Assembly: GCF_017873415.1 (NCBI RefSeq) | Contig: NZ_JAGGKD010000018.1 | Location: forward strand, 1 to 41,117 | Direction of reading: 5' to 3' | Length of the DNA stretch: 41,117 nt | Source: Methanolobus bombayensis | GTDB taxonomy: Archaea > Halobacteriota > Methanosarcinia > Methanosarcinales > Methanosarcinaceae | Shown: piece after piece, positions 851 through 25,163 of the stretch | Position numbering within the stretch: position 1 is the stretch's first letter | How the letters are laid out: the number at the start of each line of letters is the position of its first letter | The notes under the pieces: generated by a model | The model's input: the letters and a program-made list of their open reading frames with translations, nothing else | The model's database searches: none | What the model was told of the DNA's origin: nothing | Made by a program: the position numbers and the translations under genes

Positions 851-2227
851 TCATAATAAATTAATCCAACCCTGTACAAGAATCATCAGGACTATGAAGG
901 GCAGTAAATATCTTGCATAAGGGCTTACCCACTCTGGTAATTTTCTTCCCTATTCGATATTTGCTTCTTTAATGAACCTATCCCAACCCCATCCGGTTTT
1001 TAATGTACAAAACATCACAATTGCAAGAGCACCAACTGGAAGAATATTGTTACTGAATATGAAATCTTCAAGATCAAGTATTCCGGTACCTGGTCCAAAA
1101 GGTTGTATCCAGCTTAAAGGGCCAAAACTCAGAGCACAAGGAAGTGAAAGCGCAAGTATCCCAATAGTATTGACAAATGCAGCCTTTTTTCGCTTCCATC
1201 CCCATTCATCCATGGTAAAAGCCATTATATTTTCAAATATTGCAATAACAGTTGACATGGCTGCAAATGCAAGGAATGTAAAGAAAAGAATACCCCATAA
1301 TCTTCCTCCTGTCATCTGGTTTAATATATTGGGAAGTGTTACAAAGATAAGTTCTGGTCCAGCACCTGCATCAATGCCAAAAGCAAATGCAGCAGGGAAT
1401 ATAACAAGTCCTGCAAGTAGGGCAATTGAAGTATCCAGCACAACCACGTTGATAGTTTCTCCCGGTAAGGAGCGTTCTTTACCTATGTAGCTTCCAAAAA
1501 TGGCCATTCCGCCCGCACCAGCACTAAGCGTGAAAAAAGCTTGTCCCATTGCAGCATAAATAGCTTCACTGTCTATAAGACTCATATCAGGTTTCAGATA
1601 GAAAATAATTCCTGCATTTGCTCCCGGCAGAGTGACAGATTTGATGACAAGTATCAATAAAATAAGCACCATTCCGGACATCAGTGTTTTGCTTACTTTT
1701 TCAGCTCCTTTTTGTAATCCTTTTGAACATACCCAGAATCCGGTTAGCACAACAAGTCCCATCCAGAATACTATCTCCTGTGTATGGCTAAGAAAAGCTT
1801 CGAAAAAGCTGCCAACTTCCTGAGGCTCAAGTCCGGAGAAACTTCCGTCAATAGAATAGTAAACGTAGGCAAGTCCCCAGCCTGCAACTGTCGTATAGAA
1901 CATTACGAGCAGTACATTTCTTATAATTCCCATGTATCCAAAAACATGCCATTTACTTCCTTCAGGTTCCAGTTTTCTCATGGCTCCGGCAATGTTCAGT
2001 TTTCCGGCTCTTCCAATAGAATATTCCATTAAAAGAATAGGGAAACCAAGTAGAATCAAGAATGCAAGATAAATAAGAACAAAAGCAGCTCCTCCATATT
2101 TTCCCGTGATGTATGGGAAGCGCCATATATTGCCAAGTCCGATGGCACATCCAGCAGATATAAGTAAAAACCCAAGTCTGCTGGAAAGTTCTTCTCTCTC
2201 TGTGTTGTCCTTTGTTTTTCCGCTCAT
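851..2227 (-). CDS. Sodium:neurotransmitter symporter family (NSS) transporter with in-frame UAG before TM12
   Basis: Multi-helix Na+-coupled amino-acid or osmolyte symporter of the LeuT/MhsT family. The N-terminal motif SAGCAIGLGNIWRFPY is the family TM1 signature (Na+ and substrate site), followed by about ten more hydrophobic segments. I start at the ATG of MSGKTKDN (2227); longer upstream reading has no support. The ordinary frame stops at TAG (950-952) after about 425 residues, just after IKEANIE. The same frame continues for 32 codons to TGA (851-853), encoding KLPEWVSPYARYLLP then a hydrophobic run ending QGWINLL. That is what the TM11-TM12 loop and TM12 of this family look like. I therefore annotate UAG readthrough, probably pyrrolysine, giving about 458 residues. 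The alternative is an 11-TM protein ending at UAG. Substrate unknown. Divergent from the flavoprotein gene. Confidence 0.8.
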
Positions 2228-2365
2228 TGTAAGTTCGTATTCATATTTGCATGCATGTATTATAATATTAATACTGAGTACTATAGTTTTACTTTTTTTA
2301 CATCGAAAGTAATTATACCTAATAGAAACCAATGTTCAAAGGAACATGATAAAGTGGGGAATCAA

Positions 2366-6604: not shown

Positions 6605-7795
6605 CTAATCCTCCTCCTTCATTGCCAGAGCACCAAGTATGCTACCTCTGACTATTACTCCTAATATCTTTTCATTTTCGTTAATAACTGCAATAGGTAA
6701 GGCATTCTCTGCCATCATTGGTATTATTTCCTTTATGGGCATATCAGGAGTTATTATGTTGATATCGGTTCTCATGACATCCCTTATGCCTTTATGTTCC
6801 TTGGCTGCAGGAGCTGCAGCATCAACACATAATATTCCCTTTATCTTCTTATCTGCATCAACTACGAATATTGATGACATACCATGTTTCTTCATGAGCT
6901 GAAGTGCAACAGGAAGTCCTGAATTGACTGACACTACAGGATCTGGTCTTTTCATGATATTTTCAGCTGTAAGTATCTTTGTCCTGTCAACACCGGCAAC
7001 AAATTCTGATACGTAATCATCAGCAGGATTTGTAAGGATCTCTTCTGCAGTACCTATCTGTGCGACCATTCCGTCTTTCATGATAGCTATTCGATCACCA
7101 AGCTTCAGAGCCTCATCAAGGTCATGGGACACAAACACAATGGTTTTCTTCAATTTGTCCTGAAGTGCGATCAATTCATCCTGCATCTCCGATCTAATAA
7201 GCGGATCCAGTGCGCTGAATGCTTCGTCCATTAGAAGAACATCAGGGTCAGTGGCAAGGGCTCTTGCAAGACCCACTCTTTGCTGCATACCTCCACTTAG
7301 CTGAGATGTCTTGCTTGATCCGTAGCCTTTCAGACCAACCTTGGAAATAGCTTCTTCAGCTTTTGCATATCTTTCTTCCTTTGATATGCCTTGTATCTCA
7401 AGACCAAAAGCCACATTGTCTATTACAGTTCTATGAGGTAGAAGTGCAAAGCTCTGGAAGACCATACTCATTTTCTTTCTTCTGGCCTCTCTCAAATCCT
7501 TATCATCCATTGTGGCAATATCATCACCGTCAATAAGGATATGACCTTCACTTGGATTTATCAGACGGTTCAGGCAGCGCAAAAGAGTTGATTTTCCTGA
7601 ACCAGAGAGTCCCATGAGTACAAAAGTCTCTCCTTCGTAAACATCAAAGTTTACTTCATAAAGGCCAACGGTCTGTTTTGTTCTTTCAAAAATTTCCTGT
7701 TTGGAAACGCCTTCCTCTATGAGCGATATTGCTTTTTGAGGATTCTTGCCGAATATCTTGACAAGATTACGAACTTCTATTTTCTTTTTTCTAAT
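6605..7795 (-). CDS. Glycine betaine/proline-type ABC transporter ATP-binding protein, non-canonical start
   Basis: About 396-residue OpuAA/ProV-type ATPase. Walker A GLSGSGKST is at about residues 62-70, signature LSGGMQQRVGLARA, Walker B VLLMDEAFSALD, and a C-terminal pair of CBS domains that in the family senses ionic strength. Starting at the first ATG (7615) would cut into Walker A and lose about 60 expected N-terminal residues. The frame stays open upstream to a TGA at 7805-7807 and encodes typical OpuAA sequence (KIEVRNLVKIFGKNPQKAI, VGLYEVNFDVYEGETF) but contains no ATG, GTG or TTG. The best start is ATT at 7793-7795, six bases after GAGGT. It ends in TAG with a TGA four codons on. 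First gene of the operon. Confidence 0.88.
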   Translation of the reverse strand: MRKKKIEVRNLVKIFGKNPQKAISLIEEGVSKQEIFERTKQTVGLYEVNFDVYEGETFVLMGLSGSGKSTLLRCLNRLINPSEGHILIDGDDIATMDDKDLREARRKKMSMVFQSFALLPHRTVIDNVAFGLEIQGISKEERYAKAEEAISKVGLKGYGSSKTSQLSGGMQQRVGLARALATDPDVLLMDEAFSALDPLIRSEMQDELIALQDKLKKTIVFVSHDLDEALKLGDRIAIMKDGMVAQIGTAEEILTNPADDYVSEFVAGVDRTKILTAENIMKRPDPVVSVNSGLPVALQLMKKHGMSSIFVVDADKKIKGILCVDAAAPAAKEHKGIRDVMRTDINIITPDMPIKEIIPMMAENALPIAVINENEKILGVIVRGSILGALAMKEED

Positions 7796-7887
7796 TGGAA
7801 TACCTCAATTTGAAATAAGGTTGATAGAATTATTAGTCTATATTTTTGATTGGGCAACCCTATATTAATCTATCGTTTCATATCGCT

Positions 7888-23061: not shown

Positions 23062-23769
23062 TTATCTATTGGTCTTAGGAGTTAGTAGCCTGATACCTTC
23101 TTTGCTTATATTGTAATTCACAATATCCAGAGAAATTTCCGTGTCTCTCATCTTTGGTATGTATAGGTATCTTTCCATTTTACCCGTATAGGGATTTTCT
23201 TTTATCATCAAATGGATTGTTCCGTAAGTTGAGTATTCGGCTATCCTGTGAGTAAGTTCATGTGCAGTTTTATCCATTACTATTAGGCCTGTCCACTTTG
23301 ATTGCGAGAATATGTATACAAGAGTGTCAATTTGATCCCTGAAATCTTTTAGATCCTGGCCAATTGAAAATGTACCAATATTGTCAAAGACAATTATTTC
23401 TGTATCTTCCGGAATCAGGAATTTTATTTTACGCGGATCCGTGGAATTTGTTGTAATATTTGCGTATTTATCATCAATACCTTCTATTCTTCTTTCAAGC
23501 ACTCTCACCATTGTAAGCTGCTTGTTTTCCACAAAAGGTTCAATATCCCGACCAATTGTTTTTCCATGAAATATTATCTTCTCAGGGTTTTCTTCAGTTG
23601 CCAGCATCGCACATTTTTTCCCGTCCATGCAGGCTTTATAAAGAAAATGTATGGCAAACAATGTTTTACCTGTGCCAGGCTCTCCGGTTAATAAGACTGT
23701 TTCTCCTTCCACAAATCCTCCCTATATTCTTTTGTCGACATCAGGGATTCCGGTAGATATTCTTTTCAT
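23062..23769 (-). CDS. KaiC-like RecA-superfamily ATPase with in-frame UAG at codon 16
   Basis: Single-domain KaiC-like ATPase of 235 residues if UAG is read. Reading from ATG 23769 gives MKRISTGIPDVDKRI, then TAG (23722-23724), then GGFVEGETVLLTG. The downstream paralogue (24572) reads MARISSGISDLDKRLQGGF, so UAG sits exactly where the paralogue has Gln16; CAG to TAG is one base change. Walker A GEPGTGKT, KaiC-type glutamates ATEENPEK and Walker B IIVFDNIG are intact. The alternative is initiation at GTG 23712, with GGGAGG five bases before it, giving 216 residues lacking the conserved N-terminus. Both products could be made. Function unknown; family members signal by ATP-dependent oligomerisation. 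Confidence 0.8.
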
Positions 23770-23861
23770 AAATTACACCACATTTTTGCTGAAGCAGGCA
23801 AGATTGCTATGAATCACTTACAGTTTCAGTATTCAATGTGTGTTTTTTATCTGTTTGCAGT

Positions 23862-24572
23862 CTATCTGTTTGTCTTTGGAGAGAATAGTTTTATTCCGTC
23901 TTCTGTAATATCATAATTTATCAGTTCCAGAGTAATTTTTGTACCTCTCATTTTTGGTATGAACATGAATCTTTCCATTTTACCTGTGTATGGGTTTTCC
24001 TTGAACATCAGTCTGATGGTTCCATAGGTGGAATATTCCGCAATATTATGTGTAAATTCATGTGCTGCTGCATCCATTATGATAAGTGATGTTCTTTTTT
24101 GTGCAGAAAGCAAGAATGAAAGTACTTCAAGTTCTTCTTTGAATGTCTTAAGATCCACTCCGATAGAGAAAGTTCCCATATTGTCAAGGACAATAACATC
24201 TACTTCATCATTAATTATGTGTGTAAGATTGTTCAATGTGTCAATATTCATACATGTAAAACTGTCTGCACCTTCTTCCATGTTCATGACTCGCATTTCA
24301 AAAAAACGTATCATGGTGAGCTGGTTACTTTCAGTGTAAGGCTCCAGATCAAAGCCAAGAGCTTTTCCATGCTCTACTATCTTTTCCGGAGTTTCCTCTG
24401 TTGCTATCATTATACATTTTTTACCTTCGAGGCATGCACTATACAGGAACTGTATGCCAAATATGGTTTTTCCTGTACCTGGTTTCCCTGTTATGAGTAT
24501 ACATTCTCCCTCGGGGAAACCTCCTTGTAATCTCTTGTCAAGATCACTGATACCACTGGATATTCTTGCCAT
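23862..24572 (-). CDS. KaiC-like RecA-superfamily ATPase (intact paralogue)
   Basis: 236-residue single KaiC domain. SGISDLDKRLQGGFPEGECI at the N-terminus, Walker A GKPGTGKT (about residues 30-37), catalytic glutamates ATEETPEKIVEHG and Walker B VIVLDNMG are conserved. The C-terminal half, with NIAEYSTYGTIRLMFKENPY and YTGKMERFMFIPKMRGT, closely matches the neighbouring copy, so the pair is a tandem duplication; the gap is 92 bases. The start ATG 24572 follows AGGAAC. It stops at TAG, with a TAA five codons later after T-A-N-R, a near repeat of K-T-N-R. Role not known; possibly a signalling ATPase. Confidence 0.85.
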   Translation of the reverse strand: MARISSGISDLDKRLQGGFPEGECILITGKPGTGKTIFGIQFLYSACLEGKKCIMIATEETPEKIVEHGKALGFDLEPYTESNQLTMIRFFEMRVMNMEEGADSFTCMNIDTLNNLTHIINDEVDVIVLDNMGTFSIGVDLKTFKEELEVLSFLLSAQKRTSLIIMDAAAHEFTHNIAEYSTYGTIRLMFKENPYTGKMERFMFIPKMRGTKITLELINYDITEDGIKLFSPKTNR

Positions 24573-24683: not shown

Positions 24684-25163
24684 ATGGAATACTACATCGC
24701 AGATTCTGCAGTTTTTATCATGGGAAGTGGAATAGAACCTTATCGTATCATAACTATTCCCTCGGTTGTTAATGAACTTAAAAGCAATGAGGCAGCCATG
24801 CGTTTTGATCTTGCCCGGGAGAATGGTGCCAGGGTGGAAATGCCGGATGTTATTTTCCGTGAAAAAGTTATGAAGGTTGCCAATAAGACAAAAGACTGTG
24901 AAGAATTATCTTCAACTGATATTGATATCCTGGCAAAGGCTCTTGAATATAAAGAAAATTCTGTGCTTTTGACCGACGATTATGCAGTCCAGAATGTTGC
25001 AAAGGTCCTGGGGCTGCAAGTAAAGCCAGTCGCCCAGAAAAAGATAAAGGATGTTCTGGTATGGGAAAAACAGTGTACAGGCTGCCGAAGGAAATTTGAT
25101 AGTGGTGATGTCTGTCCTGTTTGTGGTTCTCCTTTGAAGAAAAGGCGCAAAAGAAAAATATAA
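24684..25163 (+). CDS. nob1: Endoribonuclease Nob1 (PIN domain, zinc ribbon)
   Basis: 159-residue archaeal Nob1, the PIN nuclease that cuts the 3' end of pre-16S rRNA. Asp7 in YYIADSAVF starts the PIN acidic site, STDIDILAKALE and LLTDDYAVQNVA supply further acidic residues, and a zinc ribbon follows (Cys131, Cys134, Cys144, Cys147: CTGC and CPVC) before a basic tail KKRRKRKI. Full length. It is divergent from the KaiC-like gene and 54 bases before the gfcR-like gene. Confidence 0.92.
   Translation: MEYYIADSAVFIMGSGIEPYRIITIPSVVNELKSNEAAMRFDLARENGARVEMPDVIFREKVMKVANKTKDCEELSSTDIDILAKALEYKENSVLLTDDYAVQNVAKVLGLQVKPVAQKKIKDVLVWEKQCTGCRRKFDSGDVCPVCGSPLKKRRKRKI

Follow-up and report, generated by a model that had tools for sequence, protein, structure and literature searches.

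Introduction

In archaea that carry the pyl genes UAG serves both as a sense codon and as a stop codon (PMC2933860), and release factor and tRNA-Pyl compete at such codons (PMC8211752). A foreign amber gene introduced into M. acetivorans showed readthrough of 20-30%, and the PYLIS element has been found to be inessential for the insertion of pyrrolysine (Pyl) (PMC2933860). For Thg1, the tRNA-His guanylyltransferase of Methanosarcina, a neutral gain of Pyl has been described (Heinemann et al. 2009, as cited in PMC8211752 and PMC2933860), and lineage-specific amber ORFs predicted by clustering, such as genes of T. potens, have been ascribed to neutral drift in PMC3639795, the main text of which makes no mention of KaiC. 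Here we describe an in-frame UAG in kaiC1, a gene for a KaiC-like ATPase of Methanolobus bombayensis, for which an initial annotation, made from the letters of the DNA, had proposed amber readthrough. The window analysed comprises 41,117 nucleotides and is contig 18 of the 3.12-Mb draft genome, which consists of 35 contigs and is rated 99.98% complete.

Results

The kaiC1 gene and its product

The kaiC1 gene is flanked by kaiC2 upstream and nadE downstream, and its frame reads ATG (23769) ... ATA TAG (23724-23722) GGA GGA TTT GTG (23712-23710) ... TAA (23064-23062) on the minus strand (Table 1). Besides the TAG, no further stop or frameshift was found in the 235 codons. With TAG translated as sense, the product matched nearly the whole PF06745 profile with 163.4 bits (E 7.4e-48, cut-off 26.6), and the P-loop GEPGTGKT, the Glu-Glu pair and the Walker B motif EIIVFDN are all intact. 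The profile match, the P-loop and Walker B identify kaiC1 as a KaiC/RecA-superfamily ATPase, and a structure model of the product (mean pLDDT 83) resembled the archaeal RecA-superfamily ATPases SSO2452 (2w0m) and PH0284 (2dr3). The protein family itself is an ordinary one. As regards the arrangement of the locus, kaiC2 was not found adjoining kaiC1 in the related genome G063, and the kaiC1/kaiC2 pair is thus not fixed across the clade.

Table 1. Coordinates of the kaiC1 region and of two further TAG-interrupted genes (positions in the window unless a prefix is given)
Feature	Position	Strand	Remarks
kaiC1, KaiC-like single-domain RecA-superfamily ATPase	23062..23769	minus	ATG start, TAA stop, 235 codons with TAG as sense; assigned from Pfam PF06745, fold matches and sister-species orthologues
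In-frame TAG, kaiC1 codon 16	23722..23724	minus	CAG in the six closest orthologues
GGAGG between TAG and GTG	23717..23721	minus	Formed by conserved Gly-Gly codons; GGAGG also in sister species
GTG (Val20), candidate restart	23710..23712	minus	Pro (CCN) in all aligned relatives
Leader with GTGGTG element	23770..23785	minus	Just ahead of the kaiC1 ATG; element mostly kept in sister species
kaiC2, intact tandem paralogue	23862..24572	minus	Ends in TAG; next in-frame stop four codons on
SNF/NSS sodium symporter	854..2239	minus	In-frame TAG at 950-952, restricted to this species and 32 codons short of the end
TAG-split 169-residue protein	C3:229732-230238 (L091:9732-10238)	minus	TAG at codon 77

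A species-specific TAG at codon 16

Alignment of orthologues at codon 16, which the initial annotation had recommended, returned sense codons in all relatives, and the observation of an in-frame TAG in kaiC1 is confirmed. While kaiC1 reads ATA TAG GGA GGA TTT, the six nearest orthologues (68-74% identical; genomes G060, G062, G061, G063, G059 and G042) read ATA CAG GGA GGA/GGT TTT, and Gln occupies the position in 11/11 aligned relatives of the genus. In remoter genus members the codon is CAG, CAA or, in one case, GAG, and in other genera it is TCA, GAT, AGC, AGT, ATC or GGC, residue 16 among the homologues being Q, S, G, D, E or I. As CAG is shared by the six nearest orthologues, a single C-to-T transition on the branch of this species accounts for the difference, and the comparison at this codon gives Gln as the ancestral residue in the clade. 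The single-base change from CAG to TAG envisaged beforehand is thus borne out by the true orthologues of kaiC1, whereas kaiC2 itself has CAA at codon 16. The TAG had also been placed opposite Gln16 of the paralogue, and kaiC1 and kaiC2 do align without gaps over the N-terminal region. In the structure model residue 16 lies in the loop after helix 9-14.

Homologues were present in 83 of the 112 genomes of the family, and kaiC1 was the only one among the matches listed with a TAG inside. A second KaiC match with a TAG (C1:263309) was rejected, the TAG there being its terminal stop only. A lone TAG in a frame of 235 codons is in itself unsurprising; a single TAG in an intact, constrained and conserved gene, however, exceeds chance frame noise. 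We also looked for the pattern that had been named as contradicting readthrough, namely orthologues that begin at the GTG and have no conserved sequence upstream, and found instead that the start and the upstream residues are kept in the orthologues. This conservation shows that the ancestral protein began at the ATG, and it speaks for the ancestor and not for readthrough of the present-day TAG.

The GTG behind the TAG

Nine bases (GGA GGA TTT) separate the TAG from the GTG at codon 20. The GGAGG within them is common to the sister species and hence older than the TAG, so that only the start codon is new. Codon 20 is the only codon of the 235 that differs at all three bases from the six nearest orthologues, in which it is CCT or CCA, and Pro20 was found in 29/30 nearby homologues examined. 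Although noticed after the fact, this exceptional three-base change to GTG is the strongest single hint that initiation may partly occur there. The GGAGG-GTG spacing of 4 nt is shorter than the commonest spacing in this genome (5-6) and was met in 8/126 cases. The earlier suggestion that the GTG and its Shine-Dalgarno sequence could start a shorter form is therefore a plausible one.

Rfam gave no noteworthy match to PYLIS or to any other RNA element at the kaiC1 TAG, and the predicted RNA fold around the TAG was no better than those of shuffled sequences. With neither a PYLIS match nor an unusual fold, the further idea that the UAG chooses between two isoforms found no support. An elaborated form of it, in which UAG16 and GTG20 would act as a switch, with methylamines raising charged tRNA-Pyl to give the full-length Pyl16 ATPase and a truncated form being made otherwise, is in our view very unlikely; were it true, pyrrolysine supply would set the isoform of a KaiC-like ATPase.

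Decoding of UAG in the host

The pyrrolysine system presupposed by a readthrough model was found in the host. The genes pylS (373.6 bits), pylB and pylC lie together with a pylD-like frame next to them, and pylT, found by similarity, is located ~14 kb from pylS on the same contig and is 90% identical to a pylT sequence of M. mazei. ARAGORN found no tRNA on the stretches around pylS, pylT lying further along the contig. Near pylS there is a TAG-split methyltransferase gene, mtbB, in which the 100-base stretch from the TAG onwards gives a match to Rfam PYLIS_2 (E 3e-27), and mttB with an in-frame TAG occurs in 25/27 genus members, this species included. Given pylT, pylS and the biosynthesis genes together with Pyl-type mtbB and mttB, the host is able in principle to decode UAG as pyrrolysine.

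UAG is also a normal stop, since 60/591 confident genes (~10%) in an 841-kb sample of the genome end in TAG. The sequence behind these terminal TAGs is almost always random-looking, and the distance to the next TAA or TGA is no different from that behind genes ending in TAA or TGA (p 0.28). Genome-wide reassignment of TAG was ruled out by the share of TAG-ending genes together with the lack of a closer backup stop. UAG is thus a dual codon in this host, both sense and stop, which fits the published picture of pyl archaea (PMC2933860, PMC8211752).

Frequency of interior TAG codons

Gene calls were compared with 1.6 Mb of the sister-species genome G060, giving ~370 orthologue-like pairs with a median identity of 90%. 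The real interior stops among these pairs amounted to one TAG, that of kaiC1, and to two genes interrupted by TAA or TGA, one carrying a TGA, a TAA and a deletion of ~72 codons and the other a TAA plus a frameshift. Other sites listed with interior stops lay no more than ~20 codons from a called start, and there the start seems to have been called too far upstream. Whole-genome domain matches (48 ABC, 65 HATPase and 40 radical SAM; n=153) contained no TAG and one TAA. In-frame TAG in conserved genes is therefore rare, and UAG is not freely tolerated. Two multiply damaged pseudogenes, at C1:70550-71000 and C1:353600-354400, methyltransferase-like and transposase-like by sequence appearance, were noted and would be useful as controls of decay.

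An unbiased coding-score scan of 841 kb, which for TAA and TGA mixes in operon neighbours and which misses short arms like that of kaiC1, returned one TAG-split gene besides mtbB, that for the 169-residue protein of Table 1. This protein gave no Pfam match, has homologues in 22/26 other genus members, those aligned having E, D or T in place of the TAG, and shows similar identity on either side of the TAG; no start codon was found within 20 codons behind it. In the window itself the symporter has K, M, I or E at the TAG codon in nine relatives, and its last segment, beyond the TAG, is similar to theirs. There are thus three single-lesion, otherwise intact TAG genes here (kaiC1, the symporter and the 169-residue protein), in the last two of which the ancestral codon was other than CAG, while no single-lesion intact gene with TAA or TGA was met in these scans. 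The contrast of three such genes with two wrecked TAA/TGA genes, being one of small and partly ascertained numbers, points to tolerance of TAG and favours partial Pyl readthrough.

The argument that two in-frame TAGs in one window favour readthrough accordingly holds in part. The symporter, presumably the second gene that was meant, is indeed a species-specific TAG gene; both, however, had been picked as unusual, which introduces ascertainment bias, and the unbiased scan added one more. Likewise, the proposal of amber readthrough has to be set against the use of UAG as a normal stop and its near absence from the orthologues and domain matches above.

A separate observation concerns a glycine-betaine/proline-type ABC ATPase gene in the window (7615-7804, minus strand), where homology reaches ~60 codons upstream of the first ATG through a stretch that contains no ATG, GTG or TTG. 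The likely start is an ATT six bases behind GAGGT, and the layout in G060 is identical, so that a conserved non-canonical start is possible.

Selection and divergence

Codon-model analysis with our own script, the TAG codon being treated as missing, gave a dN/dS of 0.19 for kaiC1 on the branch of this species against 0.065 on the other branches (2dlnL 5.7, p ~0.02). The value of 0.19 is below 1 (2dlnL 4.3, p ~0.04), although this result is borderline and gives no date for the TAG; that of kaiC2 on the same branch is 0.03. On this branch kaiC1 is thus under purifying selection that is weaker than in its relatives and than in kaiC2. The TAG could postdate any signal of selection, and constraint on the branch is no proof of present function.

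The kaiC1 protein is 70-75% identical to those of five sister species. The corresponding values are 88-90% for kaiC2, compared in four species, 88-90% for nadE and, for the product of the gene at 24684-25163, 89-92%. In the kaiC1 tree long branches were found on both sides of the split, so that faster evolution extends beyond this species. Out of 90 positions invariant in 12 other sequences kaiC1 keeps 83, the seven deviations (alignment numbering) being Q16 (TAG), P20V, I37L, N116K, V127I, T224S and K229R. Against G060, the 14 codons of residues 2-15 differ by 2 amino-acid and 5 silent changes, and the 215 codons behind codon 20 by 56 amino-acid and 72 silent changes; in this comparison the conservation of residues 2-15 equals or exceeds that of the rest, but against the other sisters it is no higher.

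Discussion

The explanation that we favour, and to which we would give about an even chance of being correct, is that UAG16 is a species-specific and probably recent CAG-to-TAG change that is partly read through with Pyl, accompanied by some restart and probably tolerated. Part of the ribosomes would insert Pyl at UAG16 and produce the 235-residue ATPase, with Pyl replacing Gln16 in a variable loop, and the remaining ribosomes would stop after a peptide of 15 residues. Readthrough would most likely be partial because tRNA-Pyl competes with release factor at UAG. Some of the stopped ribosomes would probably restart at GTG20 to give a form that lacks the first 19 residues. Basal Pyl insertion needs no cis signal, and no sign of regulation was found. 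Since residue 16 varies across the wider family and the genome also holds a paralogue, the change is more likely to have been tolerated than selected.

A young pseudogene, in which the UAG would stop nearly all ribosomes on a redundant paralogue, leaving its product lost or negligible before decay has begun, is an unlikely alternative but one that has to be taken seriously. It would agree with the use of UAG as the stop of roughly a tenth of genes, with the raised dN/dS and low identity of kaiC1 and with the possible redundancy offered by the paralogue next door and by 25 family matches in the genome, and in another member of the genus (G048) the homologue is indeed stopped by a TAA at about codon 140. 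kaiC1, however, has one TAG and a dN/dS below 1 instead of the several lesions or neutral dN/dS of a pseudogene, its invariant positions are largely kept, and the other TAG-interrupted genes likewise carry single lesions where those interrupted by TAA or TGA are wrecked. An error of sequencing or assembly, or a polymorphism at the level of the clone, at 23722-23724 would account for a single C/T difference in a draft of many contigs; we regard it as highly improbable given the completeness of the genome, the clean frame around the site and the two similar TAG genes with non-CAG ancestral codons.

It is also conceivable, but decidedly unlikely, that kaiC1 now starts at the GTG at 23712 altogether, the UAG ending a short leader, with a product that lacks residues 1-19 and with Pyl uninvolved. 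While the replacement of an almost invariant CCN by GTG at all three bases, with GGAGG four bases ahead and the TAG just upstream, is what such a start would look like, a three-base change can also result from one multi-base mutation. In the model the shortened product would be without strand 3-4 and helix 9-14, and of the 52 columns invariant across the family alignment it would lose six (R3, S5, G7, D12, G17 and G18). Moreover, residues 1-15 and the leader upstream of them are still conserved, and a long-standing start at the GTG alone would need neither.

In kaiC1 a Pyl-decoding genome offers a clear example of a fresh amber codon, together with six sister species that have CAG, an adjoining paralogue, an exceptional candidate restart codon and two comparable TAG genes. 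The gene thus allows one to test how Pyl organisms absorb amber mutations, be it by readthrough, restart or loss, and is relevant to the question of how stop codons turn into sense codons.

Among known systems, SSO2452, PH0284 and FlaH (4yds) share their fold, P-loop and length with kaiC1, and their structures were solved as those of ordinary proteins, whereas kaiC1 has an in-frame TAG. With MtmB, MtbB and MttB it has in common an in-frame UAG, flanked by homologous sequence on either side, in a Pyl archaeon. In these methyltransferases, however, the UAG is conserved and the residue catalytic, while that of kaiC1 is confined to one species, where relatives have CAG or CAA, at a non-catalytic position and without a PYLIS match. 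The amber ORFs predicted in PMC3639795, as far as they are described there, resemble kaiC1 as random amber gains that Pyl insertion might tolerate. In its workings kaiC1 would resemble Thg1, which, going by the citing papers, shares with kaiC1 a lineage-limited in-frame UAG, a lack of catalytic need for Pyl and a host with the Pyl system; Thg1 is a known Pyl protein in that literature, whereas readthrough of kaiC1 is suggested by its sequence. The single-base origin of the codon, its tolerant position and an otherwise intact and constrained gene agree with a neutral amber gain of the Thg1 type. kaiC1 may thus be regarded as a candidate for such a gain, to which the restart codon directly behind the UAG, a feature that sets it apart from Thg1 as described in those papers, would be an unusual addition.
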